Origin: Coptis chinensis
Taxonomy: Eukaryota > Streptophyta > Magnoliopsida > Ranunculales > Ranunculaceae
Assembly: GCA_015680905.1 (NCBI GenBank)
Contig: CM027378.1
Span: forward strand, 83,233,501-83,297,500
DNA length: 64,000 nt
Reading direction: 5' to 3'
Position 1 is the stretch's first letter; the number at the start of each line of letters is the position of its first letter. Of the stretch, positions 2,242-58,842 are shown piece by piece. The notes beneath the pieces were generated by a model, which ran no database searches, had not been told where the DNA came from, and saw nothing but the letters and a program-made list of their open reading frames with translations. A program made the translations under genes and the position numbers.

Positions 2242-3432
2242 CTAACTTTGTCCCTGTCCTTGCCTAGGTGGAGCTTGATGATAGTTGTTTGCTTGCCTAA
2301 CATTTTGGTTATTAAACCTTGGAGGTGAAACTTGTTGATTGTTTCGCCAACTAAAGTTGGGATGTTGTCTCCATGAGGCATTAGAAATAGGATAGCTATT
2401 AATGGAGCAAACATTGTCTTGCTCTAATTGTTGTTGTTCATAGGCGAGAGGACAATAGGATTCAGGGTGCTCAGGACTCAAACAGACATTACATGGGTTG
2501 GAGTTAACATTCATGACGGGAATAGGCTTTTGTTGCACAGAAATAGCCTCAACCTTTTTAGTTAGAGATTCGATTAAATTTTTAAGTTTTAGATCGGGTT
2601 TCATCTCAAACATACCGGCGGCCTTAACTGTTGAAGAAGAACTAACAGAGCGGGGGATATCATCACTACCCCCCCAATTGTTATTACGTTTAGTTTGATC
2701 TTCTAAAAATTTGTAAGCCTCCGAGGCTCCTTTACTTAGGAAACTACCCCCATTCATTATGTCAAGGACTTCTTTATGGTGATGTTGAAGTCCTTTGAAA
2801 AAGGCACGAACTAACGTGTCTTTTGCTAGGTTATGGTGTGGACACTCTATAAGCAGATCGGTGAAACGATTCCAAGCCTCAGAAAAGGATTCATGAGGAT
2901 TTTGTCGGAAAAAATGAATCTTGGAAAGCATCTCATCCGTCTTTAGGGGTGGGTAAAAATGTTCCATAAACAACTGAACAAGTTTAGCCCACGAGTCCAC
3001 AGAGTTAGGCGTTTGGGCAGTTAACCAAGACGCTGCCTTATCGGCTAAGGTGAAGGGAAATACCCTCAGTTTAATTTGTTCCGTACCAACCGTAGGATGA
3101 TGGAATGTTGTAAGGACTTGTTCAATCTTACGCATGTGTTGATAAGGTTTTTCATGATCTAAACTATGGAAAACGGGTAACAAATTAAATATGTTTGGGG
3201 GAATTCGAAAATCCCCCACTGGGTCTGCTAGAACGATGCAAGATTTAGGGCTATCGCTCAAGGCTTTGTAAAAGTCGGAGAGAGGAGTCTCTCTTTCTTT
3301 AGCCATTATGTCCGGTGTGGTTGGCGGAATAGTGGCTAGAGGTGTAGTGATTGGTATACTCGATAGATTTGTTTGTTGACGCTGACGGTTAATTACGTTC
3401 GGTGTTTTTCTCCGACCAGGTCTTAATCTCAT
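2242..3432 (-). CDS. gypsy Gag (retrotransposon gag domain plus CCHC knuckle)
   Basis: An uninterrupted ORF of about 396 codons. Residues about 70-230 form the plant retrotransposon gag domain: PPNIFNLLPVFHSLDHEKPY, IKLRVFPFTLADKAASWL, LVQLFMEHFYPPLKTDEM, SFSEAWNRFTDLLIECPHH. Near residue 315 the sequence CNVCLSPEHPESYC fits a C-x2-C-x4-H-x4-C zinc knuckle, which in the family binds genomic RNA. A Gln/Asn-rich tail follows. It is the best preserved ORF of this element; the first ATG at 3432 is taken as start, though the in-frame Met before AKERETPLSDF is an alternative. Function as capsid protein follows from family knowledge. Confidence 0.85.
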   Translation of the reverse strand: MRLRPGRRKTPNVINRQRQQTNLSSIPITTPLATIPPTTPDIMAKERETPLSDFYKALSDSPKSCIVLADPVGDFRIPPNIFNLLPVFHSLDHEKPYQHMRKIEQVLTTFHHPTVGTEQIKLRVFPFTLADKAASWLTAQTPNSVDSWAKLVQLFMEHFYPPLKTDEMLSKIHFFRQNPHESFSEAWNRFTDLLIECPHHNLAKDTLVRAFFKGLQHHHKEVLDIMNGGSFLSKGASEAYKFLEDQTKRNNNWGGSDDIPRSVSSSSTVKAAGMFEMKPDLKLKNLIESLTKKVEAISVQQKPIPVMNVNSNPCNVCLSPEHPESYCPLAYEQQQLEQDNVCSINSYPISNASWRQHPNFSWRNNQQVSPPRFNNQNVRQANNYHQAPPRQGQGQS

Positions 3433-3943
3433 GCAAGTCTAAGTCTAAACACGACAACACTCCAAACAATCTTGATATTTTAGTATAAACCTCTAACTGG
3501 AGATGCGAGGTATGGAAGAAAGGAATACCGATAACGTCCTTGGCTTCGCTTATGAATAGCGTCTTGTTTACGCGTGTTCAGTGTAAATAACAAGTTAGAA
3601 CACTGAAAAACTTAAAAAATCGAAGTTCGAAACAAACCTGTAGAAATCCGGAAAATTTAGCTTAGGGCGCGGGTGCGCTCACTTAGGGCGCAGTCGCGCT
3701 CCGTGTAACTTGAAGTTACAGTGTTCTAGGGTGGGTGGGTCGTGTTATTGTGATCTTTTGGGCAGAAGTAGGCCGCTTAGGGCTGGTCGCGCTCCGTGTA
3801 TATTTTTATGGAACTTTCAACGTTGAAACGGACAACCACAGTATGAATCAAACAAGAGTGGGTGGGTTTAATGGGACTTAAAAATGACTAATTATACTAT
3901 GAAAACAATACAAAAGTGAAACTAAGATGGCAGCGGCGCCATT
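3433..3943 (-). other. gypsy 5' leader with GC-rich motifs
   Basis: Untranslated leader between primer-binding site and gag. It holds three GC-rich blocks (3665-3680, 3686-3701, 3780-3794), each reading on the minus strand as a variant of GAGCGCGACCNGCGCCC. The same motif recurs in the LTR of the unrelated copia element at 7051-7164. Confidence 0.6.
3929..3941 (-). promoter_or_regulatory. primer-binding site, tRNA-Asp type
   Basis: On the minus strand TGGCGCCGCTGCC lies two bases after the LTR end. It differs at one position from the complement of the 3' end of plant tRNA-Asp (TGGCGCCGTTGCC), the primer used by Athila/Tat elements. It fixes the LTR boundary and the orientation. Confidence 0.85.
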
Positions 3944-11645: not shown

Positions 11646-11945
11646 TAGATTGAGAACAAAAACGACAACAAGAAGCTAGTGTGATTCCCATTTTTTGTAC
11701 TCTCATCAGTAGCCACACATCCATTGATCAACTTCCAAGCAGTAGCAGCAACTCTAGGGTGAGTATGCGAGTTCCAGACAAGGTTTGACCAGGAAACAAT
11801 GGGTTTTTTTTTCCTTGTATCATCGAATGCTGATTTGGCCGAGAATTTTTCTTTGATGTCTGGGCACCAAACCTTGTAATCGCCGTGTTGAGGATTACAA
11901 GAGACGTCTGGTATGATTCCAAAGGACGCAAGCAATTGCATAAAA
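11560..11945 (-). pseudogene. LINE zf-RVT zinc-binding linker
   Basis: Two frames carry the pieces: KFSAKSAFDDTRKKKP with VSWSNLVWNSHTHPRVAATA, and then CCRFCSQSIESLHHIVWQC. The latter matches the Cys-rich part of the zf-RVT domain (CxxC...H...C) that lies between RT and RNase H in plant LINEs. A frameshift lies near 11700-11730. Confidence 0.75.
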
Positions 11946-13620
11946 GGTATGATTCCAACTTAGAGTTGTAACCTTTTAGCTCTTGATCAATGAGATCCAA
12001 CACATGTTGAAGAGAGAAATTGCCTAGCCAATTACCCCTCCAAAAATCAATTGATTCTCCGTTGCCTATAATCCACTTGTACCTTGTACTGATTTCTTCC
12101 AAAGTTTTTTTAATTCCATACCAAATCGAGGAGGGTTTGTGATATTGTGTCAGAGAGCCCTCTCTACTCGTATACTTAAGCTTTATAAACTGTGCAAAAT
12201 CATCTTCCCTATTGGTTATAAACCATGCCAGTTTCATAAGCATTGCCATGTACACCTCTCTGAGTTTACGAATGCCAAGGCCACCTTCATTTATAGGTTT
12301 ACAAGTGTTTTCCCATCTCACAGTAGTGGACCATTTAGAAGAAGGATCCCCGGTCCAAAGAAAGTTACGCATAACTCTTTCAGCTTCTTTAATGATACAA
12401 GACGGCCATCTGTAGATTGACATATTATATATGGGCATACTACAAAGAGTAGATTTGATTAGAATTGCTCTACCTTGGAAGGAGAGCATATTTCCTTTTC
12501 AACTAGTCAGTTTCTTCCTAATTCTATCTAGGACTGGAGAAATAGTAGAACGCTTGACTTTTCCATATACCATAAGTACCCCAAGATACTTCTCTGGCAG
12601 AAAATCTTCGGAGAATTGTAGTTCATTAAGGACCCTGTTTTTCCTGAGCATGGTAAAACCTTCAAGGAAGATTCTAGATTTGGCTTTATTAATGTTCTGA
12701 CCAGATGCCAATTTATATTTATCAAGGAGTTGATTAATACATCTGAGACTTCTGCTGTCACATTTAGAGAAGATAATCATGTCATCTGCGAAGATAAGAT
12801 GACTTGGAACTGGAAAGCCTTTGACAATAGTAAGAGGTTTTATAAGATTATGATGTCTAAGAGAGTGCATGCCCCTACTAAAAATGTCTTCTGCTATAGT
12901 AAAAAGCAATGGAGATAAGGGATCTCCTTGCTTTAACCCCCTACTCTTAGGGAAAAAGCCAATAGGTCCACCATTGAATAGAATAGAAAGATGAGCATAA
13001 CTCGTAATAACTTTGATCCAATTGATCCAAGTGAGAGAGAAACCCAGTCTACTCATAGCCTGAAAGAGGAAAAACCAACTCATAGAGTCATAAGCTTGTG
13101 TAATGTCGATCTTGATGGCAGCATTGCCTCCTCTTCTTTTAGTCTGCATCTCATTAAAGAGTTCAGAAGCTAGCCCAATATTAGATTGAGAAGACCTACC
13201 GGGAACAAAACCAGCTTGTTCCTTAGTAATAATTTTTTAACCTAAGCTGTAGTAGTTTGGAAATAATTTTCATGAGAAAATTGCCACAACAGATGGGTCT
13301 AAACTTACTAAGTTTCGTTGCATCTTTTTCTTTCGGGATCAGAGATATGAAGTTAGAGTATATGCCATTTGGTAATCTGGACTAGATGAAAAAAGATTGA
13401 ACAACTTCACATATGTCTAGCTTGATGATGGGCCAACATTTGTGGTAAAAGTGACCTTGGAATCCGTCTGGACTAGGGGAACTGTCCACTTTCATGGAAA
13501 AAATCACTTCTTGTATCTCCACATAATCAGGAATAATAGTGAGAGAGTGATTATCTTCATCAGTAACTAACTTAGGAGTGAGTCCTAAGAGTTGATCATC
13601 TTGAATCACAGCAGTTTCTG
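11946..13620 (-). pseudogene. LINE reverse transcriptase
   Basis: The N-terminal motif SPSPDGFQGHFYHKCWPII lies at about 13440-13500. The core (12499-13149) reads AIKIDITQAYDSMSWFFLFQ, GLKQGDPLSPLLFTIAEDIF and the catalytic FADD (12781-12792). The thumb (11728-12489) reads LSFQGRAILIKSTLCSMPIY and GGLGIRKLREVYMAMLMKL. All are signatures of plant non-LTR RT, which primes on nicked target DNA. At least three frameshifts or stops separate the pieces, so the element is inactive. Confidence 0.85.
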
Positions 13621-14096
13621 TGAATTTGGCTTCATAAAAACGTACTATATAGTCTTGTATTTCCTTCGGGTCTGAAAAGAGTGTCCTCTTCAGTTACAAG
13701 CTCTAAAATTATAGATGCCCCTTGTCTTAACTTACACATGTTGTGAAAGAAAGCAGAGTTCCTGTCGAGTTCTTCATCAAAGTTTAATCTACTTTTTTGC
13801 CTCTATAGACTTGCTCTGTTATTTCTTGCTGTGGAAAGTTCATTTTCTTTAAGAACTGCTTCGTTGATGATAAGATTTTTATCATGATTATCTTGGTCTG
13901 CAAGAGTTTGAGCTTGAAGAAGTTGTGCCTCTGCCATTCAGATATTATTGTCTAAGTTACCAAAAACTTCATGGTTCCATTTCTTCAGGTCCAGCTTGAG
14001 TCTCTGAAGTTTTTTTATCACTCTCACCAAGGGTGGTGCAAATAAAGGCCGACTCTAACTACTTTGAATTAATTCCAAAAAGGATGGATGGGAAAT
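13621..14096 (-). other. degenerate LINE ORF2 segment between endonuclease and RT
   Basis: Connects the endonuclease and RT blocks; only short broken frames remain. Confidence 0.6.
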
Positions 14097-14834
14097 CTAG
14101 ATTTTATTGAATCGAAAAGGGATATTCTTTGGTTTAGGCACACAAGGTTGCGCACCAAGTAGAGGTGCATGATCAGAAGCATGTCTAGGACCCACTTTGT
14201 ACCTCCACCCATTGCATTTCAAGCTCCAGGCAACATTAAAGAAGACCCTATCCAACTTAGCAATCACTCTAGAGCCCCCTCTTTGATTATTAGACCAAGT
14301 GAAGTTCATACCTTCATAAGGGGATTCAATAAGTTGAGTAGCATTAATAGCATCATGAAAATCTTGCATAGATGATCTGTTAGGAAGGTGAACACCCTTT
14401 TTTTCTTCATATCTTAAAAATGCATTGAAGTCACCTAACACTATCCAAGGAAGAGTAGTGCTAGTGAGTTTCAAATCTGACCATAGTCTCATTCTTTGAA
14501 CAATGTGACAGTTCGCATGTACAAAAGAGAGAACTGCATTATCATATGAAATCAAAATGCACTGATCTGACGTATGAACAACATCCACATTGAGACCAAC
14601 CTTGTATAAAATCCATAGATTACCCAATCTAGCAGGTAAGTCATTGTGGATAACATCAGAATTAAAGTAGTTTATGCCAATAGACTCAGTATAAAAAATA
14701 TAAAAAGACGAAGGCTTGATCATAGGTTCTGCAAGGCATAAGATTTCTGGCTTATGTTGTGAAACAATTTCCTTTAATCTATCCACTGCAGATTCCTTTC
14801 TTATTCCCCTAACATTCCAGAAGACTATCTTCAT
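14097..14834 (-). pseudogene. LINE APE-type endonuclease (ORF2 N-terminus)
   Basis: About 245 open codons: MKIVFWNVRGIRKESAVDRL, PEILCLAEPMI (catalytic Glu), IVLGDFNAFLRYEEKKG (Asp/Asn), NFTWSNNQRGG, KLDRVFFN and RHASDHAPLL (the SDH box). The domain nicks target DNA to start retrotransposition. The start ATG at 14834 overlaps the end of ORF1 by a few bases, as is usual. This block is intact on its own; the rest of ORF2 is not. Confidence 0.86.
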
Positions 14835-15480
14835 TGAGAAGGGTTGGAAGTGGTGACCTTACTGCCATGGGACCTAGTGAAAGGTGGAGTAACCACCATG
14901 CCAGTTGCTAGAATGGAGGATGCACCTTTCTTTTTAATCCCTTTCTTATTTTGACCAAATTCAGTTTGCATAGAATTGCCAACTAGATTAGTCCAACTTT
15001 CAGTGAAGGCATCTGTGACATTTAAAGCACTATGTTGAACTATAAGAGCCAACTCCTCCTCAGACGAGATTGTAAGTCTGAATAGGAATTGGGGGAGTCG
15101 ATTGACCCACATGAACTCCAATATTAGAGACAGTATGTTCCGTAGCTAAAAGTGTTGGAGAATCAGAGTCAACAATACGATCAAAATTGGTCGAGACATT
15201 TTGTTGCAGAACCACTGGATTGATAGGATGTGGGGTCGATTGACCCAACTGTACGCCAATAAAGGGAGCAACAAGTGCAGGAGGTGGTGGAATAATAAGA
15301 GAAACAGAGCCAACTATATGATCAAAGTTGGTTGAGACATTCCGTTCTATATTCATTAGGGGAATAGGAAGCTCCTCAACTCCCACAACAAGCAAAGCAT
15401 GGCATGAGAGTCATTCTCCATCCTGTCATTGTTAGTAGTACATTGACCCTGAAGAATAGAAATGGATGGGACTAAAGTAG
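14831..15480 (-). pseudogene. LINE ORF1, C-terminal part with internal peptide repeat
   Basis: Two frames (15395-15060 and 15121-14831) cover the end of ORF1. A repeated unit appears twice: NVSTNFDHIVGSVS ... GVQLGQSTP, and NVSTNFDRIVDSDSP ... GVHVGQSTPP. ORF1 of LINEs binds RNA, but the conserved zinc-knuckle region is not visible here and would lie in the missing 5' part. Confidence 0.6.
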
Positions 15481-31463: not shown

Positions 31464-31468
31464 ATCTC

Positions 31469-32058
31469 TGAGTGAGAGGAGCTACCTTTTGAACTCCTTC
31501 TAGTCTCCTCATTCAACAAAGATGCGGTAGCCATCTCCATGGAAACGATTCCATCCTTGGCTGCTCCGTGTAGAAAGACTACTAACGTCTCCCAACTTTC
31601 GGGTAGAGATCCTAATAGAAACAAAGCCTCAAATTCGTCTCCCAAATTAATCTTCATCAAATACATCTGATTGATGGTATTCTATACTTCGTTAAGATGC
31701 TCAGACATTGAAGAACCTTCTTGGTACTTCGTGTTGGCAAACTTCTTAACAACCAGCACTTTGTTTCTGCCCGACTTCCTCTCATAGAGGTCTTCGAGTT
31801 TCTTCTACAAGCCAAAAGTTGTAGTCTCTTGGGATACATGGTGAAAGACACGTCGTCAATCCACTGTCGAATGTATCCAATTGCTTTTCTATCAAGCTTG
31901 CTCCACTCAGCCACAGCGACCGATTCCGATCTTTCTCCTCCATTCTCAATGGGTTGTGCCAAGTCCTTGCAATAAAGGAAGTCTTCCATCTTGGCTTTCC
32001 AAATGGTGTAGTTCTTCCTATTTAGACTCATCATGCGAGTGTTTACGGAATTGTCCAT
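31469..32058 (-). pseudogene. copia A Gag
   Basis: Begins MDNSVNTRMMSLNRKNYTIW and continues KAKMEDFLYCKDLAQPIEN and AEWSKLDRKAIGYIRQWIDD; the second frame gives GDEFEALFLLGSLPESWETL and MATASLLNEETRRS. This is the UBN2-type Gag of Ty1/copia elements. A frameshift near 31660-31860 splits it, and L2 interrupts it at 31463 before the zinc knuckle. Confidence 0.82.
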
Positions 32059-32149
32059 GTCTACAAGTTATTTAAACTCAAATCTTCTCTCAGGAGTTTT
32101 GTCAAACACCTTACGACCAAGATTTGGATAACACCTTAGGCTAATCGAA

Positions 32150-32166
32150 CCAAAGCTCTGATTTCA
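32150..32166 (-). promoter_or_regulatory. primer-binding site of copia A
   Basis: On the minus strand, directly after the LTR, AGTGAAATCAGAGCTTTGG resembles TGGTATCAGAGC, the initiator-tRNA-Met site, with two changes. Confidence 0.7.
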
Positions 32167-32168
32167 CT

Positions 32169-32912
32169 TGTTGGGGTTTAACACCGATACCAATCGATTC
32201 CCCACTACACAGATAACTTGAATTTGAACAATAACAACTCCAATCAACAATATAAATATTCCCTACAACCAAACTAACATGCCCAACTCGCTAAACAATT
32301 ATTAACAACAAATAATAATGTAAAGCAGTAAAAGCAAAACACAACACAAATATATACCGTGGTTCGGCCAATGGTGCCTAGTTCCACAAGAGTTAGTTCT
32401 TATATAAAGTGGTAAGGAATATTATAATCACTCCTTTGCAGTCTCTCACTTTACTAGATCACTCCTCTCTCTTTACAGGCTTGTCTCTTTGTAAAAGTTA
32501 TCTGTCAATCTTGATTGCTTTCAAGATTGGGTTTCTCTCTTTGTTCTTTTGTATTTTCGTGTCTCTTCTGAGTGTTAGGTTTTGCCAAAAACCCCAACCT
32601 ATATTGTAAACTTGCGGTTCACCAAAAAATAAAATCCTGCCGAAAATAGGCATGGGTGCGGGGCGCGCCTTGGGCAAGGCCAAGTCGAGCGCACGGCGCC
32701 CTCAACGAGCTGGAGGTCGACCAAGGTATGGGCGCGGGGTGGGCCTTGGGCAAGGCCAAGTCGAGCGCGTGGAGCCCTCAAAGAACTAGAGGTCGACCAA
32801 GGCATGAGCGCGGGTTGCACCTTGAGCAAGACTGATAGGAGAGCGCACGCGCTCAGGCTTCTCCATGCAGCCTGTACTCTTTTTTCTCCTCATATAAGGG
32901 ATAACTCCAACA
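32169..32912 (-). repeat. copia A 5' LTR, 744 bp
   Basis: Plus strand reads TGTTGGGGTTTAACACCG ... GGATAACTCCAACA. Ends and body match the two LTRs of element B. It is longer because of a 76-bp GC-rich tandem repeat (32652-32830) that B has only once. Confidence 0.88.
32652..32830. repeat. 76-bp GC-rich tandem repeat in the LTR of A
   Basis: Units 32652-32727, 32728-32803 and a partial third. Each holds GGGCAAGGCCAAGTCGAGCG and GAGGTCGACCAAGG. It is much richer in GC than its surroundings. Confidence 0.82.
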
Positions 32913-38999: not shown

Positions 39000-40330
39000 C
39001 CACTACTCTTTGTCTGTACCTTCAACTGCCTCTTGATAGTACATAGGTTTTCTACCATCCGATAGTAGAACATAGGTATGTGGTGGATACCTGGTTGAAG
39101 CTTGTCTCTATCTTTCTGACCTCCTTACCCCATCTGCTTGCTCAGGTGGTGGTTCATGCACTTCATCTGCATCTTCTATATCAATAAGTTTTATCCCATC
39201 ATGAGCAATAGGATCATCATCATGAGCTTCAAACCCATGGTTTTTTGCATTCTCAATGCCTTCTGCACGTTCCACAGTAAGAACTTCTGGTTCTGAATCA
39301 ACAAGATCATTAATGAAGCTTGTAGCTTCTCACCCTCCTCGAAATCTGCTATGGTTTGATCTTCCAGTAATATCACATCTCGACTTCGGATTACCTTCTT
39401 GTTAATCGGATCATAGAGTTTGTAGCCAAACTTCCCATCCCCATAACCAAGAAAAATGCACTGTTTGGCTTTGTCATCAAGCTTGGATCTCTCATCCTTC
39501 GGAATATGCACAAATACCCTGCACCCAAATACCCTCAAATATCCATAATCAACAGCTCTGCATGACCATACTCTCTCTGGATAATCACTATTCAGAGGCT
39601 TCGACGGCAATAGGTTGATCATATGTACGGCTGTGCGCATTGCTTCTACCCAGTAGCTTCTAAGTAACTTAGAGTGAGACAGCATGCATCTCATCCTCTC
39701 TATAATTGTACGATTCATCCTCTCGGCTATACCATTTTGCTGCGGAGTTTTGGGAATGGTTTGTTCATGACGAATCCCATGACTCTCGCAATACTCTTCC
39801 AACGGCCCCATGTACTCACCCCTATTATCTGAGCGAATACACTCCAAAGGCTTCCATGTCTCTCTTTCCACCATGCTATGAAAATTCTTAAACACGCCAA
39901 GTACTTCATCCTTGGTCTTCAGACTATATGCCCATACCTTTCTCGACGCATCATCAATGAAGGTCACGGAGTATAAAGCTCCCCCGTGGGACTTTACTTT
40001 TATAGGACCACATAAATCTATGTGCACTAGTTCAAGGACATTGTCCTTTCTGTGAGACGGGAATCTTTGGAAAGACACCATATGTTACTTTCCTACCAAA
40101 CAGTGAGTACATATATTTAAATGTGTACCTTAATTTGATATATGGCAAGGCCTTTTGCTTGTCAAGAACTTCCATGCCTTTTTCACCCATATGACATAGT
40201 CTCTTATGCCATAGCTCGGAGGAAGCTTCTTCTTCTGCCGCATTTACTTCTACTTTATACAAACTAGCATGTGTCTTGTAAAGAGAGCAAGTTTTCTTCC
40301 CTTTGGCTACTACAATGGAACCTCTACTCA
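39000..40330 (-). pseudogene. copia B integrase
   Basis: Pre-integrase zinc part ELWHKRLCHMGEKGMEVLD; core LVHIDLCGPIKVKSHGGALY, ECIRSDNRGEYMGPLEEYC, TPQQNGIAERMNRTIIERM; C-terminus VFVHIPKDERSKLDDKAKQC and FLGYGDGKFGYKLYDPIN. The D, D, E residues are visible. Frames shift between zinc part and core near 40030-40080, and again after 39330. Confidence 0.85.
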
Positions 40331-41530: not shown

Positions 41531-41612
41531 TGTTATTTTCAACTCAAACCTCCTTTCAGGAATTTGATCAAACACCTTCTCGGCTAGATTTGGATAACAC
41601 CCTGCTAGGTTA
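41531..41612 (-). other. copia B leader, left part, next to CACTA insertion
   Basis: Leader sequence between gag ATG and primer site; split by CACTA element 2 at a TTA target. The other part is 50194-50218. Confidence 0.75.
41610..41612. repeat. CACTA 2 target duplication TTA, left
   Basis: TTA here and at 50191-50193 flank the element exactly. Confidence 0.85.
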
Positions 41613-41905
41613 CACTACACCAAAACAGCTTTTTTGTGACGCCAAAATGGCGTCACAAATAATTTTAGTGATACCATTTTGACGTCACAAATATGGTGTC
41701 ACAATCTGGCGTCAATTATTTTTGTGACGCCATTTTGACGTCACTAATTTGTGACATCAAAATGGTGTCACAAAATTTTGTGACGCCAAAATAGCGTTAC
41801 AAAATATAGTGACGCCAAAATGGCGTCACAAATATTTGGAACGTCAAAATGGTGTCACAAATTTTGTGACATCGTTTTGGCGTCACAAAATATATTTTAG
41901 GAAAA
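41613..41905. repeat. CACTA 2 left subterminal repeats
   Basis: About a dozen variants of TGACGCCAAAATGGCGTCA, itself palindromic, at spacings of 20-30 bases. Some read TGACGTCA, a bZIP-type core. Confidence 0.82.
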
Positions 41906-43430
41906 AAAAAATTATTGGTTGTTATACATCCACCTTACAGTCTTGCACCCTGTAAAAGAACTCATTTAAAACACCGTCCACTCTATAGAATACAAAATTA
42001 CACCATCAATCCCTTTCAAGAATATATAGTATTCATTCCATTCATTTCAAAATTATGAAGTCACTTGCAGAATAAATACTTATATTTTCCAAGCGAAAGT
42101 ACTATGCTACATTACATTGTGTTTACAACTAGCTACATAAAAAGAAAGTCTTATTAGAAAGTGTCCAAGTTGTTGCAATATAAACCATCTCCATTCTTCA
42201 AGGTGAGACAAACCAATGCCACATGTTTTGCCTATTTCATTTAACAGAGTTTAGATAGACTGATCTATTTAAATTATAACAAGAGATAGTTTAGTTCCAA
42301 CATATTTTTACACTAAAGATAGTTAGAACATACTAAACATAAAACTTCTAGGTTTGAAAACGCAACAAAAACCGGTGTCGAAGGCAATGTCATAACGTTT
42401 CACAATTTATTTATACTGGTGAATGCATTGAAGTATTGGTAAGCACAATAAACCACAAGTTACACGAGAAAAAGAAACAAAGATTTTTCAAACCTGAACT
42501 TAAAATATATAAAATAATCCACCCCTTATCTCCACATCTTCATGGCCTTGCACATTAACTCTGTAGTTCCCCATCCTTAGAGTCTCAATTATCACCTATG
42601 AAGTAAACATACATATATAACATTAGTAGGACAAAAACTTATCGACTTTAAGAAACCCATATTATGAGAATTTGTACACATGCGCACCATCTAGACATTA
42701 ACATAGATGTTGCGTATAATTAGCCAAGATACTTTGCTTTTAATATGGGTATGAGGCATAAATTTTCAGGTTTAATCATAATAACACACAAGCAACTGTG
42801 TTTTTAGTTAAATAACACAAGCTCGACTGTGTTTTAGTGAAGTAAGAGTTCATCTAATCTTATATCTTGTGCAAATGGCAAAGACACATAAGTAGTCAGT
42901 CCAGCGCAAAGGTTCTACCTATTCGATCTTAACACTTTTTAAGTTCATATATAACAAACTCGGGTTCTTGACAATCAATTGTAATGACTATAAATACCAT
43001 TCAAAGCTATAAGCATTACTAAAAGAAAATCATAAGATGATGAGTAAAATAAACTCACCTTCATCTCAAGGTCCTTCAATGCTAATACATATAGCTTGAG
43101 TGAAAGGAATATAAACCAAACTGCTCATCAGCAAATTCAAACCTTCATCTTCACAACAAATTGTTACTATTAAACCGTAATTTAAGTTAATAGTACTGAT
43201 TGTTTCAAAGAATTATCAATTGAACGAAAAAGTTTCTTATTCAGATGTCAAGTAATTCAACATGCTCAAAAAAATAACTCAATGATCAGATGGCAATATA
43301 TTCAAAAGTGCAACATATCATATATCAGACGTCAGGCTCGAGTCCCATTTGCCTAACAAAAAGAGTAATGACTAAAAAAGACAACAATAAAAGTTTTTTT
43401 CAACCATTACCACAAAGGAACAATGAGATA
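41906..43430. other. CACTA 2 interior, no gene recognised
   Basis: AT-rich, no recognisable exon or repeat. Confidence 0.45.
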
Positions 43431-44020
43431 CTTTTTGGGATGTCTAGAAGCACCTTTGTGAATTACACTTACAAGAAGTTATGCTCGCTTGGGCTTTCAC
43501 ACCTGTCTTTCCTTTCGCTTTGGACGAGGATTCTTTCCATCCAGCCACCTAGGCGAGGAAGCCTATCCAGCCTCAAATTCGTCTCATAAGTCTAAGACTA
43601 TAGAACTTACTTGATACCTAGATATCTAGCTACTAGGAACAGCCTAGCTAGTCAGATTCAAAGGAAAGAGCAGATAAAACAACATATAAGTAGAAACGGA
43701 AACCTATTATACTAGATATGCATTGCTGCTCTTGGAGTCTAAGACTTCTAACTCTTTTGCCTCATTGGACTCAAGGACATATCAAATATTAACTCAATGA
43801 TCGGGGCCACATAGTGCGAAACGCACTTTGGTGAACCTTATAGCCTTCCCTTCCGTTCGTCATCGACTTAGAAAGAATCCCCTCCTAGGATTCAAAGAAA
43901 ACTAGAGCAACGATTTTAACTCGGCAAAGAAAAAGGTTTTTGTTCATTCCAGGCACAAGAACTGGACTCAATTCGAGTTTAGCTACAATGCATACTAGCT
44001 AAGCTAACTAAAAGAGCAGT
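43431..44020. other. GC-richer block of foreign look, possible organellar DNA
   Basis: Sequence such as GGACGAGGATTCTTTCCATC and CCTAGGCGAGGAAGCC differs in base composition from its surroundings and resembles plant mitochondrial intergenic DNA in style. No mitochondrial gene is recognised, so this is a guess. Confidence 0.25.
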
Positions 44021-44113
44021 TACCGAATGCTAGAATAATAACATTTGTATGCAAAGTGGGTAAATTCCATCATCGAGAGCATTAAAAAGAGGGAAAGACA
44101 AGCCCAAACTTTA

Positions 44114-44135
44114 GTGTGTGTGTGTGTGTGTGTGT
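44114..44135. repeat. (GT)11 microsatellite
   Basis: Uninterrupted GT repeat. Confidence 0.9.
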
Positions 44136-44198
44136 TTAATAGTTTGTAGCAGAAACTGTATTTAATAAAAAACAACATATGAAAATAGGTAAATAACA

Positions 44199-45020
44199 TC
44201 ATATGAATGTTCCTCGTACTTTGTCATACACTGCCCAGTTTATCTCATATGAGAACAGCTCCTCCTTTGTCTTAGGAATCATGTCAATCAATTGCTTTGC
44301 ATCCAAAAGTTTTTTGTTATCTTGTGTCTTAACACGTTCACTCTCCCTGTCACGGTCAGTTATATTCTCCTTGTAGTCATCCGTCGGACGATGTCTGGCC
44401 TCATCATTGTGATCCCACTCATGCTGGCTCGACCTGTCACCAGCTTGTCTACTTCTATCCCTTTCAGCTTCATTTCGTTCTTTTGGGTTAACATTTGAAA
44501 TGCGCTTGGCATACTCCGCTGCCGCAGCCAAATTAGGTGGTGGTGTCCTAGAACTGGGAGTTTGGACATCTTGCAGTTCCTCCGTTGAGTAATCAATAGG
44601 AACCAAGGGCCTCATTTTCTTGTCTTTATCCCCATCATCTTCATTTTCTTCATGGAATATAGAAGGTACAGCCGTTCGTTTACCTGAACCCACCAGACCA
44701 AATCCCAGTTTCTTAGTAGGAGGCTAGGAGCATTACTACTCTGCCTAGTATATGGTAAAGGAACTGGCAAGACAGTTGAATCATCCCCAACGCTATTTTT
44801 CATTATCACATCATCTGTGAAAAGTAAAGTTGAGATTATAAAACAGATAAGAAAAACAAAAGAGCAAGGAACATAGAGCAAATAAAATAATTAAGGTACA
44901 GTAAACTAACTTGAATGATTCGTAACTCGAAAGACGCTCTCATAAGACTGTTCAACAACAACACTGGATCTAAAATCAGCAATAGCTTCTTCTAGCAATG
45001 CTGATTTTTCATTTCCGTTA
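44199..45020 (-). pseudogene. RBM25-like splicing factor fragment, captured by CACTA 2
   Basis: Minus strand: possible exon at about 44920-45010 (SALLEEAIADFRSSVVVEQS), then about 44740-44820 (SDDVIMKNSVGDDSTVLPVP), then PPTKKLGFGLVGSGKRTAVP, RPLVPIDYSTEELQ, PPPNLAAAAEYAKRISNVNP, an Arg/Asp/Glu-rich stretch, and KQLIDMIPKTKEELFSYEIN followed by WAVYDK. The last parts are the linker and the start of the PWI domain of RBM25 proteins. The PWI domain is cut after WAVYDK. A frame break occurs just before PPTKKLG. The family acts in splicing; this piece lacks the RRM. Confidence 0.82.
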
Positions 45021-45235
45021 CACTGTTCTACACACATTTACTACAACATATTATACATATTCCACTCCCTTCTCAAAGTTTGACAGGTTATCAATTGGAA
45101 CTCATGCATGACATAACAAAGAAAAATCAGAACAAAACTATGAAAGACCAACAATACAGTTGAAATAAAAGTCCCCCTACTTATTCAAATAAATGAGTCA
45201 AGCCAAACTACGATTCTTGGAGACTGAATGAGAGA

Positions 45236-45422
45236 AGTTCTAACCTTAGAAGTATTCAGCCTTCCAAAATCAGTTTCAATTCTTAAACTAGAAGGCTTAT
45301 TAGAGCTACAACTAGGCGCCTGATTGTCAGTTGGAAATGCAGCCCCATCATGAGCATTGAGAATTACACAATAGCATTGATCTGTTTCTGTCATGACCTG
45401 CAACAAGATAGTGATTTTATTC
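45236..45422 (-). other. unidentified exon-like segment in CACTA 2
   Basis: Between a TTGCAG acceptor and a GTTAGA donor-like site the minus strand reads VMTETDQCYCVILNAHDGAA, FPTDNQAPSCSSNKPSSLRI and ETDFGRLNTSK without a stop. It may be an upstream exon of the same RBM25-like gene or of another gene. Confidence 0.35.
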
Positions 45423-47163
45423 ATGCACATTCAATACCTTGGTGGTAGAGCTGCCTCCAACAGATCTTTAGCAACCTATGAACAATGACACGATTAAAAC
45501 CAATTTCGTGGTCAAGAAAATATTTGAAGCCTCTAAGAACCCTACAAAACTTCATCCATTAAACAAGTACTCCTCTTCAATTACCAAAGAAGTCGGACAT
45601 TCCTAAAGGAACTGCTCCATTTTTCAGAACCACCCAATTCCCTCTTTACCATACCCAATAAAAATTTAACCAATCTCAACTCCAACTCATTAATCAATAT
45701 TTAGCAATCAAAGTCGGATACCTACAATATTCACATATAACAAAGATCAGGTTGATGAGAAATAATCACTATGTAAAACTCATGTCACCCAATTTGTGTA
45801 AAACAAAATGAAATTTTGATCGATAATAGAAAAAGCAAATTAAGGCTAGAAAACACACCAAAGGATCTAGCTGATTGTAACAGGATATGGCAACACCCCA
45901 CCTGTATAGTTTTCCTACCAAATAAAAATGAATAAGATAGCGAAGGTTACGATCAAATGATTATGCCTTAATAAAAGTAATATCTTTCTTTTGGAAGCAT
46001 AATGCGGACGTCAATAACAATTAACAACCGAATAGAGATGCACTTTAACAAATGCGCTTGAGAAAAGCTTCTCGCAAAGAGCGAGAAAGATGTTAAAGTC
46101 TACGATAAATGAATAGGTTCGGATCTTTAATAGAGACAGAAAGATCGAGGTAACTTGTATTAGTTGCATGAACTTATTGACGATGTGATCTTTGGTTTGT
46201 AAAAGCATTTATGTAGTCTGTCTACCTAAACCTTGCCTTATTTACCAATAACTAAATAAAATTAAAAGAATGCATCTTTGGATTTGGACACTCAACGGCG
46301 GCTTGACTCGCTTCAAGCCATTTGATTAAAGTCATAGTATTAGTAAATTAAAAGAGCTACACCCTACAAATTGCAATGAGACCAATAAAACCACGAGATA
46401 GAATTGTGGAACCCAACCATATCATATATACTTCGGATCAAAAGAAATTGTTATATCTAGTTATCTCCCATACAATTTTGGCATTTGCATATGCTTTTGG
46501 AGTAATATATAATACATATAGAAAGACTGAACTATAGACTCACCGTTAACGGTAACGTTTATCTATATTAGTTACACCATGATATTTCTCTGGCAATGGT
46601 AGCAAAGATTTTGTGAGATTGCAAATGACCTTACACAAACAGAAAGCACCCCAAAAAGAGAATAACAAAAGTAATTTCAATCCAAAGATTGTGCAACGAA
46701 AGAGCAACATGTGTAATCGACATGGTCATTCAGAATACAAATCTATAAGAAACACTTCATGAAATTCATGCTCAAAAACCAAACAAGAATATGTATAGTG
46801 GTTGCTTCTAAAAAGCTACCAGGAACCACCAATAACTACAAAATAACACAAACACTAATTAGCACACCTTTATAACTACTTTGAAATATACTCCAATTAG
46901 CATAAGCTAAAACTCTTAAACAATGATGTTTCATATAGAAATACCTCGTGCTACAACATCGTCTCTCCGGTTTAGTTCCTAAATGCCATTTAAAAAATGT
47001 AACCAACAGATTAATTTTTAACTAAAGGCAAAGACAATCACAAAAAATGAAAAGTTAATACTCTTCTATGTATGGCATCAACTACCTAGTCTAATGTAGC
47101 ACACAGATATCCAATGTAGACATGCACATGCTTATACACATCTAAAGCAAAAGCAGAAGATAC
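45423..47163. other. CACTA 2 interior, no gene recognised
   Basis: AT-rich; no recognisable exon. Confidence 0.4.
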
Positions 47164-47226
47164 CTACTCCCTTTTCTTCAATTCAGCCTCCTTGAATTAG
47201 AGTTCCTTCCCCTTCTTTTTGATATC
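47164..47226 (-). pseudogene. SCAMP-like exon b, captured fragment
   Basis: A 63-bp exon after a TTAG acceptor and before a GTATCT donor reads DIKKKGKEL-stop-FKEAELKKRE-stop. It matches the coiled segment [20 protein letters not shown] of plant secretory carrier-associated membrane proteins. The last stop is TAG where the family has CAG (Gln). Confidence 0.78.
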
Positions 47227-47320
47227 CTAATTCAAAACAAAGTATCGTATGATGAGTTCAGATTAAAGCTTAAATAAGGCATCCTAATAAGGTAATTTGT
47301 TGTCCTGAAATTTATCTCAC

Positions 47321-47416
47321 CTTTGAAGAATCAAGAGGAATATCAACTGTTGCACCACATTCAGGAGGGAGAGGTGAAAGCCCTGAGTTTGCGACAGGAG
47401 TAACACTTCCAGGATT
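47321..47416 (-). pseudogene. SCAMP-like exon a, captured fragment
   Basis: A 96-bp exon (TTAG acceptor, GTGAGA donor) reads NPGSVTPVANSGLSPLPPEC and GATVDIPLDSSK. Plant SCAMPs have NPFANPGSVPP...SRLSPLPPEP...TVDIPLD at their N-terminus. Exon order a then b is kept. No membrane-spanning exons are seen. Confidence 0.8.
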
Positions 47417-47879
47417 CTAACAATCAAACCAAAATGTTAGCTTGATACAGCATAATACATCAAATGAATCTCAGAAGCAAACAAAAGGATAAAAACCCAA
47501 AAACTCCAAGTCATAGTAACATATATAACTAACAATTTCAGAAATTAGACATTACCTTCAAACAAAGCAAAACCCCATGGCACCATCTACTCGAATTGGA
47601 TCAAAACAAACAGATCTAAAATTCCGGTGAACTAGATACCTAGTCAGTAAAACCCCACGAAGATCAGATGCTCGATCTAGTGGAGAAGAGAAGCTCGAGA
47701 ACACCTAGGTTGATCTAATTAAGACAACCATTGCGGATGAGTTTCCCAAACCCTAGAATTGGTTTGTGCCTACCGAAAAGTTTCTTTTCTTTCTTTTCCG
47801 GTAAAGCAATGAAATAACACAAGAATTCTTATATCTAAACGGAATATTCTTATATTGCAAAAAATGTAAGTGATATTAT

Positions 47880-48095
47880 ACATACTTAACTACTTAGATG
47901 GGTTGGAACTTTGTGATATAAAAGGTTGGATATAACATATCAGTTATTATGTAAACGACATGACAAAATAGCAACCGATATGAAAAAATATAAACCGATA
48001 TGAGAAATCTTGGTAGAGAATATTATATCGGTTTTATTAAGAACCGATATAGAGGTATTCTTGTAACCGATATAAAATATGCTTTTTTAGTAGTG
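47880..48095. mobile_element. foreign CACTA right end, AACCGATAT type
   Basis: Repeats of AACCGATAT on both strands lead to GCTTTTTTAGTAGTG at 48081-48095, which is a CACTA-like terminus unlike those of element 2. Its left partner was not found, so it is a fragment or the other end has decayed. Confidence 0.5.
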
Positions 48096-48700
48096 ATTCT
48101 TACCTTTGGCTCGATTCCTTGTTGTCTTACCTTTTGGAACAAGTTCAAGTATTTCACTTGGATCCTACCTTCTCTTATATAACCTAAGGTCCATGGCAAA
48201 GAATAAAGAAGATTGCACCCGGCAAAGAACACCAAGAAGATGGGCAAAGCAGCGGGCACCGGAGCCCGATGCGCACCGGTGGCAACAACACCAAGAAGCG
48301 AAGACGAAATTCACTTCTATTAAGTGAAAGAGTTTTACAGGAATTGTCTTGATCGTCGGATATCCTGAAGAAGAAGAAGTGTTATAGAACGATTTTCTGC
48401 AATTCTTACCAGTATGGAATGAGTAAATAATCAAGCTACAAGTCTCGATCTATATGAAGCGGGTTTCTTTTTTCAGCTATCCTTACCTAAAGGCACCAGC
48501 CCGATGGGGTGTCTAACCTATACTAGGAGTCTCGGACATACTTATGAAAGCCGGCGAATATAGCAAAGATCATCGGGGAAGCACTAACTACTAGTTAGCG
48601 GCTATTCATGGAGACTCAGACATGTAGCAAGCTAACTAGGACTAGTACGACTTCAATACCTAGTCTTTGGTTCTCAAGTTCCAGCTGTTGGGCCTTACTT
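48096..48700. other. GC-richer block of foreign look beside the CACTA end
   Basis: Text such as GGGCACCGGAGCCCGATGCG and CACCAGCCCGATGGGGTG stands out in composition. No gene recognised; organellar origin is possible but unproven. Confidence 0.25.
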
Positions 48701-49253
48701 AAAAAATAGACAAGGAAAAATTCCAAGACAAGGAAGCAAGGAAAGAAAATCTACCCTACAACTAAGAACTCCCCCATTTACAAAAAAAATACAACTAACA
48801 TCAGCTGCCATCCTCCCCTGATCAGGTCCCTTCCACGTCATCCTCGACCTAAATCGGATGTGATCATCCTCCTCACTGTCCACATCATTTCATGATTCCA
48901 AGCCACAAATGTAACTTTTATTTTTGATCCATCAATCTAAATATATTGAGATAATTCAGAGATTACATCAACACCTAGAATCAGGAAAAAAAAAATACTA
49001 AATCAAAAAGTTAATACTAAAACCAGAACTCCAGACCCAACTCCCTCACCACACACACACAATACACCCAACTAATTAACACCCAAAGCAGATAAGCAAG
49101 CTAAATAAAACAAAGCAAAAGGCAAAAAAGAAAAATAGACACAACTACATAAAAGACACAAAGCCAAATGTACAACAATAAGAATTTAATTCACGCCTCT
49201 TAATCAACTAGAGAAGTATCTAGAACATTTTAGAATAACCAAAATAAAAGTGC
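48701..49253. other. CACTA 2 interior, no gene recognised
   Basis: Low-complexity A-rich stretches; no supported exon. Confidence 0.4.
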
Positions 49254-49491
49254 CTAGCGCAGAACAAACGTGAAGATACCAACCGTGCCATTTGTCGACG
49301 CAGAAACTAAACTAGTGGTCATCCATGTGCCAATGGATAAGGCCGTCACTTCTCCATCGTGTTTTCCAACAAATTGGACACCATCAATCAGCTTGTTAAT
49401 AGGAAACTTTATTGCTTCCTCTGTAGAAAATACTTCCTTTTTTTCAACTTGAATTGTATCAATTTTCAGCATATTTTCCGATCCCAACTAC
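49254..49491 (-). pseudogene. VARICOSE/EDC4-like WD40 exon, captured fragment
   Basis: After a GTAG acceptor the minus strand reads [60 protein letters not shown] and TNGT, ending at a GTTGGT donor-like site near 49289. Plant VARICOSE has [20 protein letters not shown] and WMTTRLVSAS here. The family scaffolds mRNA decapping. Only this exon is recognised. Confidence 0.83.
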
Positions 49492-50089
49492 CAAATATTC
49501 CTATAAATGGTCAAGAGCGATAAAAATGGGGTTTGAAGATATGAGAAAGAGAGGAGAGGATGTGGTTAGATGATTTGTTTTGATCAAGAGAGTAGAGAAA
49601 GAGAGTGGGGTTCTCACACAGATGGTTCTCGTTTATGAATCTGATGCAAATTGGGTGGAGAAACTGCGAAATGGAGAAAACTCCATAGGAACAAGATTAT
49701 AAACCCTAGAAAACGAAATCACGTTAGAAACCCCAAAACAAAAATCAAGACAAACAAAACTTATCTTCATCGACTGTAACCTTAAAAGATCGAAAAGTGA
49801 GTACCTTTGTTTAAAGATGGAGATGTTGGGATAAACAAAGCTGTCACCTTCAATTCACCGTCGTCGAAATTAGGGGAAGGAGGTGGAATATGAAGAAGTG
49901 GGGAGGAAGAACATATTTAGGGCAAGGGGTTTCACTCTTTCAGAGAGTTGAGATCGAGAAGAAACCCGATGTCTTTCGAGTTTGACGCTTAATGCGAGAA
50001 CGCGTCTTGATTTCAACTGTTTTTTAGCTAAAATCTCACGCCTGTATGCCGTCACTAATTTTTTCCAGAATTTTCTTAAAAAAATAAAA
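49492..50089. other. CACTA 2 interior, no gene recognised
   Basis: Contains AGAGAGAG-rich sequence near 49545-49610. No exon recognised. Confidence 0.4.
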
Positions 50090-50190
50090 TAACCTTTTGA
50101 TTTATTGTAACGCCTAAAAATGAATACTGACGCCTAATTGCCGTCACAAAGCCTCAAAACCCTCTATCACAAAAATGCAGTTATGTAGTG
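50090..50190. repeat. CACTA 2 right terminus and subterminal repeats
   Basis: TAACGCCT, TGACGCCT and GCCGTCACAAA motifs lead to GTTATGTAGTG at the end. Confidence 0.82.
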
Positions 50191-50203
50191 TTATTCTAAC
50201 CTT

Positions 50204-50216
50204 GGCTTTGATACCA
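50204..50216 (-). promoter_or_regulatory. primer-binding site of copia B
   Basis: Minus strand TGGTATCAAAGCC, two bases after the LTR, matches the initiator-tRNA-Met site TGGTATCAGAGCC with one change. Confidence 0.85.
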
Positions 50217-50218
50217 CT

Positions 50219-50892
50219 TGTTGGGGTTAATACCGACACTAATCGATCCCCACTACACAGATAACTTGTACTATGATCAATAACAACTCCAGACAAAGAT
50301 CTAAACTTTCACTACAACCTACCTAGCATGCCCAACTCTCTAAACAACTATCAACAACAAATAATAATACAAGAAAGTAAAACGCATACCACAACACAAG
50401 ATGTAACGTGGTTCGGCCAATGATGCCTACTTCCACAAGAGCTAATCTTTTTATAAAGTGGGAATGACGATTACAATCACTCCTTTCAGTCTCTCATCTT
50501 ACTAGATCACTCTTCTCTCTTTACAGGCTTTTCTCTGCAAATGTTATCTCTCTCAATCTTGATTGCTCTCAAAATTGGGTTTCAATTTCGTGACTTGTGT
50601 TGGCTTGGTCGTCGGCTTAGGTTTTCCAAAACCTTGATTTGTTTTTATACCAAAAACAAATTTCAAGGTTCTTGTAAGCAAAAAGCAAAATAGACATGAA
50701 ATTTGTGGCGCCTCAAGAAGGCCAATTCGAGCACGCCCTCAAGTGCATGTTCAGTTTTCCAGTAACATGGGCGCGGGCGAGCCTTGTGCTTAGGCCAATC
50801 TGAACGCGCGCACACTCAACCTTTTTCACGCAAATAGAACTTGATTTCTTCTTCCTCATTCTCATGTGAAATTGTGAAGGATAACTCTAACA
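50219..50892 (-). repeat. copia B 5' LTR, 674 bp
   Basis: Plus strand TGTTGGGGTTAATACCGACA ... GGATAACTCTAACA; partner of 32959-33616. Target duplication ATTTT follows at 50893-50897. Confidence 0.9.
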
Positions 50893-53684: not shown

Positions 53685-53729
53685 ATTGCCAACGGATTCC
53701 TCTAACTTTTAGGCATTAGAACAAGAACA

Positions 53730-53996
53730 ATGGCAACAATTTTGGCCAATAAACCCACTGTTGAGCTCACTTCAAAAACCTCAGTGTTTGAAGTAGGGAT
53801 ATTTGACTTAGCTCAACAGCAAGTTGAGACATCGCAACCCTCGTCCCCTCCAAAACAGTTGTTAATCATTGCACCAACCGCACAAGGCGAGTATCCTGTT
53901 ATTGTCTTTTTACATGGCACGTCTTTAAGCACATCCTTCTATAGCCAACTCCTCCAGCACATTGCCTCCCATGGTTACATAGTTGTTGCTCCACAG
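53730..53996 (+). CDS. CLH: chlorophyllase 1, exon 1
   Basis: 89 codons from ATG 53730 to a GT donor after GCTCCACAG. Reads MATILANKPTVELTSKTSVF, LLIIAPTAQGEYPVIVFLHG, TSLSTSFYSQLLQHIASHGY and IVVAPQ. The FLHGTS block is the alpha/beta-hydrolase oxyanion region of plant chlorophyllases. No signal peptide is obvious. The exon length and split site equal those of gene 2. The open frame beyond 53996 is intron. Confidence 0.9.
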
Positions 53997-54464
53997 GTTT
54001 TATTTTCTCTTCACTCAATAGCCATTATAAAGCGCTCGTGCATGTTTCCTACAACAATTTTTGCTGGGGCGACCCTATAGTGCTTTTTTTGGGGGTCAAA
54101 GTACTATATCAAAAATCAAAATTTCCTGAGGGCTCGTTACTCTAAATTTCAGAAATTTATAGTTAAAAAAATTCATAGAGAAGTCCTAATACATATATTG
54201 TAATTGTCTTTATAACTAGCTAGGTAGATATTAACGTTATGAAAGCAAAATACTATTTATTTTTGGACAATTGAAAGCAGAATACTGACTATATGTCTAT
54301 ATTAGCAAGTGCATGCGCGTTCTTTTATTTGGTTATGATATTTTAATTTTTAAGTTCTTCAATTTAGCGAACGTTGAAGACTGAACTCCAGTGAAACAGT
54401 GAAGGAGTTATCTGTTATTACTTATTAGTAAGACAAGTTCCGTAAGGACTAAATATCTTCCAAT

Positions 54465-55735: not shown

Positions 55736-56440
55736 CTATACCCAGTGTTCCCTCCCTCGTGTTGCTCTTGCTACAAAGAAATGAAATTTACAGCAGAAGT
55801 CACAGACTGGTTGCCTAAAGGCCTCCAATCAGTACTACATGAAAATGTTAAAGCAAACCTACTCAAGCTCGTCCTAATTGGGCATAGTCGAGGTGGAATG
55901 ACCGCGTTTTCTCTTGCACTAGACCGTGGTGGAACTTGGCGCAAATTCTCAGTTTTAATTGGATTAGACCCCGTAGCAGGAAATGAACTGATAGGTCAGA
56001 TTAAACCTGAGATTCTCAACAAATGTCCTAGTTCTCTTAATTTTGGTATTCCAGTTATGGTCATCGGAACAGGTCTTGGAGAAGTAAAATTCGGTGGATT
56101 GGGACCTGCATGTGCCCCAGTTGGACTGAACCATAAAGAGTTTTACTATGAATCCCAGCCTCCTTGTTACCATTTTGTCACTAAGGATTATGGGCATATG
56201 GATATGTTAGATGACAAGCTCAACTGCAGCGGGAAGTTGGCTGCTTGTCTTTGTAAAGCAGGGAAAGGTACAAAAGACACAATGAGAAAATGTGTAGGTG
56301 GACTTGTAGTAGCTTTTCTGGAAAATTATTTGGATGGCAAGACTGGAGATCTTGAAGCAATACTACAGAACCCTGATATTGCACCAACTACACTCTCTCC
56401 AGTTGAGTATATAAGTGAGGTGCTAAAGTCGTCGACTTAG
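55736..56440 (+). CDS. CLH: chlorophyllase 1, exon 2
   Basis: 234 codons plus stop; with exon 1 a 323-residue protein, usual for the family. The lipase box GHSRGG starts at 55880 (Ser about residue 140), with the likely triad Asp in IGLDPVAG (about 167) and His in KDYGHMDMLDD (about 243). Other family text: MKFTAEVTDWLPKGLQSVL, PACAPVGLNHKEFYYESQPP, CVGGLVVAFLENYLDG, ending LSPVEYISEVLKSST. The reaction is hydrolysis of chlorophyll to chlorophyllide and phytol. Compared with gene 2 the exon start LYPVFPPSCCSCY is unusual. Intact. About four of five residues agree with gene 2. Confidence 0.92.
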   Translation, partial: LYPVFPPSCCSCYKEMKFTAEVTDWLPKGLQSVLHENVKANLLKLVLIGHSRGGMTAFSLALDRGGTWRKFSVLIGLDPVAGNELIGQIKPEILNKCPSSLNFGIPVMVIGTGLGEVKFGGLGPACAPVGLNHKEFYYESQPPCYHFVTKDYGHMDMLDDKLNCSGKLAACLCKAGKGTKDTMRKCVGGLVVAFLENYLDGKTGDLEAILQNPDIAPTTLSPVEYISEVLKSST

Positions 56441-58152: not shown

Positions 58153-58842
58153 CTATATTTTTTGGTACCAAATTCGCTACCTAGCGATGGCTACGAAGAA
58201 ATGAAATCAACAGCAGAAGTCACTGACTGGTTATCAGAGGGCCTAAAATCAATACTACCTGAACATGTGCAAGCGAACCTGCTCAAGCTCGCCCTTATTG
58301 GTCATAGTCGAGGTGGCAAGACCGCTTTCTCTCTTGCATTAGATCGTGGTGAAACATGGCGCAAATTCTCTGTTTTAATTGGAATAGACCCTGTAGCAGG
58401 AACAGGACTATTAGGTCAAGTTAAACCTGACATCCTCACTAATGTCCCTCGTTCTCTTAACTTTGGAGTTCCAGTTATGATCATTGGCACTGGTCTTGGA
58501 GATGTGAAACTCGATGGATTGGCACCTGCATGTGCCCCGGTTGGAATGAACCACAATGAATTTTATTATGAATCTCAACCACCTTGTTACCATTTGGTCA
58601 CCAAGGATTATGGTCATATGGATATGTTAGATGATAATCTCGACCTCTTGGGGAAGTTAGAAGTTTGTGTTTGTACGTCTGGAAAAGGTACAAAGGACCC
58701 CATGAGAAGAAGTGTAGGTGGACTTGTAGTAGCCTTTCTGGAAAATTACTTGGATGGTATGAGTGTAGATCTTGAAGCAATACTCCAAAACCCTGATATT
58801 GCACCAGCTACACTTTCTCCAGTTGAATATGTCAAGTCCTGA
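58153..58842 (+). CDS. CLH: chlorophyllase 2, exon 2
   Basis: 229 codons plus stop; full protein 318 residues. It reads LYFLVPNSLPSDGYEEMKST, then GHSRGG at 58300-58317 (Ser about residue 141), IGIDPVAG (Asp about 168) and KDYGHMDMLDD (His about 244). C-terminal text is RSVGGLVVAFLENYLDG and LSPVEYVKS. All expected triad residues are present. The gene arose with gene 1 by tandem duplication, as promoter, exon lengths and intron site agree. It is more compact and closer to the family around the exon 2 start. Confidence 0.93.
   Translation, partial: LYFLVPNSLPSDGYEEMKSTAEVTDWLSEGLKSILPEHVQANLLKLALIGHSRGGKTAFSLALDRGETWRKFSVLIGIDPVAGTGLLGQVKPDILTNVPRSLNFGVPVMIIGTGLGDVKLDGLAPACAPVGMNHNEFYYESQPPCYHLVTKDYGHMDMLDDNLDLLGKLEVCVCTSGKGTKDPMRRSVGGLVVAFLENYLDGMSVDLEAILQNPDIAPATLSPVEYVKS

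Follow-up and report, generated by a model that had tools for sequence, protein, structure and literature searches.

Probable assembly of a four-gene Pack-CACTA element of Coptis chinensis from smaller fragment-carrying CACTA elements

How does a transposon without a transposase of its own come to hold pieces of four host genes, and does it make anything of them? The question is raised by a CACTA element of 8578 bp at positions 41613-50190 of a 64,000-nucleotide stretch of the Coptis chinensis genome (assembly GCA_015680905.1, contig CM027378.1, positions 83,233,501 to 83,297,500), called the window throughout. We put at about 0.7 the probability that this is a non-autonomous Pack-CACTA element, mobilised in trans by CACTA transposases and built up step by step as smaller CACTA elements, each already carrying fragments, fused with one another. 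An earlier note on this DNA had described a complete CACTA element, non-autonomous and with fragments of RBM25, SCAMP and VARICOSE captured in it, and this was borne out, while a fourth fragment, from a DUF2045 gene (45018-45424), and the mosaic origin of the element had escaped it.

Both termini begin with CACTAC, the left one reading CACTACACCAAAACAGC from 41613 and the right one ...TTATGTAGTG up to 50190, and each is flanked by TTA (41610-41612 and 50191-50193). Inverted termini starting with CACTA, together with a 3-bp target-site duplication, place the element in the CACTA superfamily. The left terminal inverted repeat is a 31-mer (CACTACACCAAAACAGCTTTTTTGTGACGCC, 41613-41643, plus strand), found in identical form in at least 18 places among the best 100 of 222 end matches, the window included, and also as the left end of a copy on C3. 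The right terminal inverted repeat (50160-50190, minus strand) reads CACTACATAACTGC, whereas sister copies read CACTACACCATAACTGC or near variants, so the window copy is without 3 bp there. With the element taken out, the joined flanks (1500 + 1500 bases) align unbroken to a related Copia copy at 31464-32535, with 85% identity over 1081 columns and the junction within the aligned part. The site was therefore formerly empty, and the ends and TTA duplications given in the earlier note, which had proposed empty sites as their test, are right. We take the host retrotransposon to be one of the Copia copies of the window, and the insertion adjoins what is presumably a retrotransposon primer-binding site, a TGGTATCA-type sequence near 50213-50220 on the minus strand. 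The TGACGCC-type subterminal repeats noted previously are present as an array of TGACGCCA..TGGCGTCA units (41633-41890, plus strand), but this array is essentially left-sided: the motif TGAC[AG][CT]C occurs 17 times in the left 300 bp and once in the right 300 bp, against a background mean of 0.08 and maximum of 1 in 183 other bins of the window. No open reading frame of at least 120 aa other than the RBM25 exon lies inside the element, shorter transposase remnants not having been searched for, and in keeping with the definition of a Pack-CACTA element it has no transposase of its own. The genome-wide end-pattern search also brought up a second abundant family, with ends CACTACACCTACACAACCGG.

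The captured fragments could be traced to loci of the same genome (935.6 Mb in 116 contigs searched), and all four lie in one orientation, on the minus strand, with several splice sites kept. The RBM25 fragment (44025-45021) comprises a partial exon, an intron, the next exon as far as YDK, and the beginning of one more intron; read from 45021 to 44025, it is identical at 936/1004 positions (93%), intron included, to C2:24006250-24008900, where the parent locus continues into an intact PWI exon (PF01480, 54.9 bits). The gene had thus been named correctly beforehand, but the extent then given (44199-45020) was too short. Directly adjoining is the DUF2045 fragment, with one exon at about 45245-45397 and intron pieces, identical at 389/407 positions (96%) to part of C2:113924300-113925299, the joined exons of which match DUF2045 (PF09741, 62.6 bits; cut-off 25). 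At the junction the DUF2045 match stops at GTGTAA and the RBM25 match starts at GTAACGG, giving a 4-bp GTAA overlap; comparison of the other RBM25 boundary revealed no overlap. SCAMP exons and introns occupy 46896-47416 (exons at about 47321-47416 and 47164-47227), within a module (46152-47657, minus strand) that is shared with separate elements, 3/4 of those fetched having an end that reads CACTAGGTG. Two paralogues are candidate donors, at C9:37606326 (70%) and C4:75828717 (68%): the C4 locus matches PF04144 (E 8e-20) when its exons are joined manually, no Pfam match was obtained with just the N-terminal piece of the C9 locus, and the C9 locus has more of the stretch in common with the element (46896-47060 and 47160-47390). 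The VARICOSE fragment (49254-49491) is a piece of an exon of EDC4/Ge-1 type (WD40) with a frameshifting 2-bp deletion, 74% identical to C9:17271545-17271772, a locus which with manually joined exons matches Ge1_WD40 (PF16529, E 4e-8).

Direct family searches with the fragments were weak, and their identity is therefore based on the parent loci. Pfam yielded nothing above its cut-offs: below them, the RBM25 piece hit Herpes_UL56 and CLN3 and the DUF2045 piece hit DUF2045 (E 0.008), whilst neither VARICOSE nor SCAMP matched any family. Among PDB entries, RBM25 3v53 (E 0.031) and lamin-B1 (0.82) came up for RBM25, and for VARICOSE nothing but designed Cake proteins. The comparison with the same genome, which the earlier note had proposed, located parents for all four fragments as well as sister copies, and the three segments named there proved closest to RBM25, SCAMP and VARICOSE genes that the same genome holds intact. 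By these matches, the element carries identifiable host-gene fragments, another mark of a Pack-CACTA element.

We then counted the modules throughout the genome, grouping places within 9 kb of one another. All candidates were scored for the SCAMP segment (24/24, of which 22 at 92-100%, window included), the VARICOSE segment (21/21: 14 at full length with 88-100%, window included, four partial with 90-93%, two very short, and the parent itself) and the RBM25/DUF2045 segment (26/26, both parents and the window among them). The left arm of the element (41890-44024), which also lies beside RBM25 fragments lacking a listed SCAMP or VARICOSE match, gave 47 matches from the best 40 of 233 candidates, and for this reason the counts are lower bounds. 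Both candidate SCAMP donors, the parent loci of VARICOSE, RBM25 and DUF2045, the two very short VARICOSE matches, and 24/47 left-arm matches that were short or second pieces of counted places were removed before counting. This leaves at least 55 module-bearing places, at least 51 of them with single modules or subsets. The full set of left arm, RBM25, SCAMP and VARICOSE is found in at least four, at C1:42.51, C2:83.28 (the window), C3:44.14 and C7:70.99 Mb (hereafter composite copies), so the combination is not unique, and the word "distinct" in the earlier note is wrong if read in that sense. The partial sets amount to at least 12 places with left arm and RBM25, 8 with RBM25 only, 7 with left arm only, 8 with SCAMP and VARICOSE, 10 with SCAMP only and 6 with VARICOSE only, where "only" stands for places with no second module among the matches listed nearby. 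One of the 12, at C3:44.18 Mb, probably belongs to the composite lineage: it shares with the composite the RBM25 insertion (see below) and some of the middle stretch, and the C3:44.14 copy is about 33 kb away. Two smaller observations concern copy structure: three RBM25-fragment copies lie within 70 kb at C8:89.86-89.93 Mb, perhaps through local hops or tandem duplication, and the C3 composite (L034, 3143-4346) has about 1.2 kb extra between VARICOSE and SCAMP that is absent from the window, L030, L035 and L037.

The order of assembly is constrained by lesions in two of the captured exons. The 2-bp deletion in VARICOSE is present in 12/12 copies that also carry SCAMP (the window and 11 others) and in 0/6 copies without SCAMP. 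The RBM25 exon of the window has an 8-bp insertion near 44720, which 3/3 fetched composite sisters carry at the identical point; it was found at five places in the genome, and the parental form (within 3 mismatches) at the parent and 12 others, while 7 of the 24 non-parent RBM25 places have neither form, four of these stopping short of the insertion site. As the simple elements are parental at the lesion sites, they are not remnants of the composite in its present state, and these markers argue that the composite was derived from the modules and not the modules from the composite. The ends of the simpler elements carry further information. Fetched SCAMP-only elements start at CACTAGGTGAAAATATGG in 3/4 cases, differing from both ends of the window element, and the left ends of the SCAMP+VARICOSE elements, which agree with the left end of the window element in all but 4 to 6 of 31 letters, are by this comparison related and compatible. 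In its interior, at 47950-48095 on the minus strand, the window element retains an orphan end of CACTA type (CACTACTAAAAAA, together with ATATCGGTT repeats), which appears to be a relic terminus.

Several of these elements have left traces of movement. Matching 3-bp duplications flank 5/7 sister copies of which both ends were read: a C5 copy of 6479 bp (ACT), a C9 copy of 5034 bp (TGT), the C3 composite of 10006 bp (ATA), and two SCAMP+VARICOSE copies at C1:46.21 and 46.25 Mb (L036 and L038, 4716 and 4705 bp), which both have GGA and equal flank letters where compared, and therefore probably represent a single insertion within a duplicated segment. Kimura two-parameter distances among the four composite copies range from 0.017 to 0.052 over 45420-47080. 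The CACTA transposase domain PF02992 is abundant in the genome, many of the best 150 of 2715 candidates being without stops; no transposase partner was tied by position to the element ends among these and the best 100 of 222 end matches.

Taken together, the left arm with the DUF2045-RBM25 fusion is found without the other modules, VARICOSE is found without SCAMP, the SCAMP module occurs in elements bearing a different CACTA end, and the SCAMP+VARICOSE and four-gene forms are each present at several places, some copies of each having matching duplications. In a stepwise fusion, adjacent insertions would be mobilised as a single unit by CACTA transposases acting in trans, with the fused unit using the left end of one element and the right end of the other, and the internal ends would be lost. 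A published model has neighbouring Pack-CACTA insertions move as one with loss of the internal ends (as outlined in PMC8903248), and the module census, the polarity of the lesions, the orphan end and the related left ends fit that model. Stepwise fusion is likely but not proven, because adjacent precursors were not seen.

Several points weigh against assembly by fusion. No adjacent precursor insertions were seen, no autonomous element with these ends was identified among the end and transposase matches listed, and the left arm+RBM25 places are known from match positions alone, their right ends being unread. The other end of the SCAMP-only elements was not recognised in the four that were fetched, one of which (L041) had no recognised end at all, and since the left ends are so alike, an exchange of left ends through fusion cannot be seen directly. 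At three RBM25 places that reach the insertion site (C6:51.59, C8:89.86 and C8:89.92 Mb), neither form occurs within 3 mismatches. Two of the seven copies are without a perfect duplication, namely L032 at C4:12.46 Mb (ATG/GCG) and the composite L037 at C1:42.5 Mb (8568 bp, TGT/TGC). For the former, the flanks are homologous (93-95%) to those of L039 at C4:12.18 Mb, which is without the left end of the element, and GCG stands at the right end of L039 and at the left end of L032; the pair may thus stem from one insertion with a GCG duplication that was altered to ATG in L032. Finally, fragments taken up one by one through repair might produce much the same census.

The last point leads to the chief rival, in which a single element took up the fragments one after another through template switching, as gaps left by excision were repaired, and not by fusion of neighbours. 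The 4-bp overlap of the parent loci at the DUF2045-RBM25 junction, as in microhomology joining, and the related left ends of composite and SCAMP+VARICOSE copies would suit such a route, but the other RBM25 boundary lacks an overlap, and repair capture by itself predicts neither the separate SCAMP, VARICOSE and RBM25 places nor the different CACTA end on the SCAMP elements nor the internal CACTA-like end at 48095; we regard it as possible, though rather doubtful. CACTA elements usually yield deletion derivatives, and the small elements might instead be what remains of an original multi-gene element. This is unlikely, as 6/6 VARICOSE copies without SCAMP lack the 2-bp deletion and 12 RBM25 carriers are without the 8-bp insertion, though a multi-gene ancestor, since lost, may have been parental at both sites. 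Stepwise fusion is the reading preferred here.

As for what the element makes of its cargo, RBM25 is a splicing factor and VARICOSE a decapping scaffold, and the earlier note had suggested a possibly chimeric transcription unit; as a coding unit, this is not supported. The RBM25 insertion and the VARICOSE deletion each shift the frame, and the SCAMP exon ends in TAG in 15/16 aligned element copies (the window plus L029-L043; for L031 the final two bases are not in the alignment), with an extra in-frame TAA in the window, L036 and L038. With these frameshifts and stops, largely common to the sister copies, a coding chimera is unsupported. The codon-position test, which covered RBM25, points the same way: private substitutions in the four composite copies fall 15/23/25 at codon positions 1/2/3 (231/230/231 sites; chi-square p 0.26), and differences from the parent common to all four fall 9/6/4, with no third-position excess. 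An expressed chimeric gene with a functional fusion product could draw on the single orientation and retained splice sites, and fragments of this kind can be spliced as exons in Tgm-Express1 of soybean (PMC1947982), but the reading frame here is neither open nor constrained, and we consider such a product very improbable. The payload would thus be passenger DNA, with no coding constraint detected and no sign in the sequence that the element encodes a new protein. Spliced non-coding transcripts from the partly kept splice sites are possible, and any effect is likely to be at the RNA level, either through splicing into read-through transcripts or through putative small RNAs matching the parent genes. 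That the composite is transcribed from its right arm, across all fragments, into RNAs (small, or spliced and non-coding) with RBM25, VARICOSE, SCAMP and DUF2045 as simultaneous targets, making it a mobile multi-gene regulator, is a prediction that we consider a long shot.

Pack-CACTA elements with fragments of several loci are known (PMC8903248, PMC8978399 and the review PMC13317346). The Pack-CACTA/Pack-TYPE families of Arabidopsis, rice and maize (PMC8903248) are likewise non-autonomous with several-locus fragments between transposon ends, and their longer elements resemble fusions of shorter ones; the present case differs in the plant, in the location of four parents, in lesions that constrain the assembly order and in a SCAMP module that also occurs with a different CACTA end. 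Tgm-Express1 (PMC1947982) is a CACTA element with several unrelated host-gene fragments and retained exon-intron structure, but it has other genes, is inserted in an intron and was shown to be expressed, whereas the element here lies in a Copia retrotransposon and is known from sequence. The Jozin CACTA elements of Chenopodium (PMC8978399) share the captured gene fragments, but those described there have transposase coding regions and other genes, and the one end quoted, CACTAGTAGAAAAATAG..., is different. In the open-access library searched, titles and abstracts revealed no CACTA element with an RBM25 fragment and none with a captured VARICOSE. In C. chinensis, one genome holds a natural series of intermediates, with single-, two- and four-gene CACTA elements and lesion markers that constrain their order, so that full-length copies could put the neighbour-fusion model of Pack-CACTA growth to the test. 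It also holds a warning for annotation, as many RBM25-, SCAMP- and VARICOSE-like exons of this genome are transposon passengers.

Among the remaining features, the right arm (49510-50189) is matched at no fewer than 40 places, window included (49 matches from the best 40 of 209 candidates). The stretch 48096-48760 had by its look suggested a mitochondrial origin, which was unsupported: all 46 matches from the best 40 of 97 candidates lie on C1-C9, so the stretch behaves as a dispersed chromosomal repeat. About 410 bp of it (48308-48720) recur at 89-92% at several further chromosomal places. A 29-mer taken from near 43880-43908, where the sequence looks similar, had no exact match in viral contigs, and Rfam gave no match at the gathering threshold over the whole window. 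Outside the element, open frames at 2242-3438, 11728-14858 and 39191-40084 (minus strand), among many others, resemble what we take to be Copia, Gypsy and LINE pieces, while those at 53706-54080, 55736-56440 and 58153-58842 (plus strand), with a GHSRGG motif, presumably represent two or three tandem chlorophyllase-type hydrolase genes.

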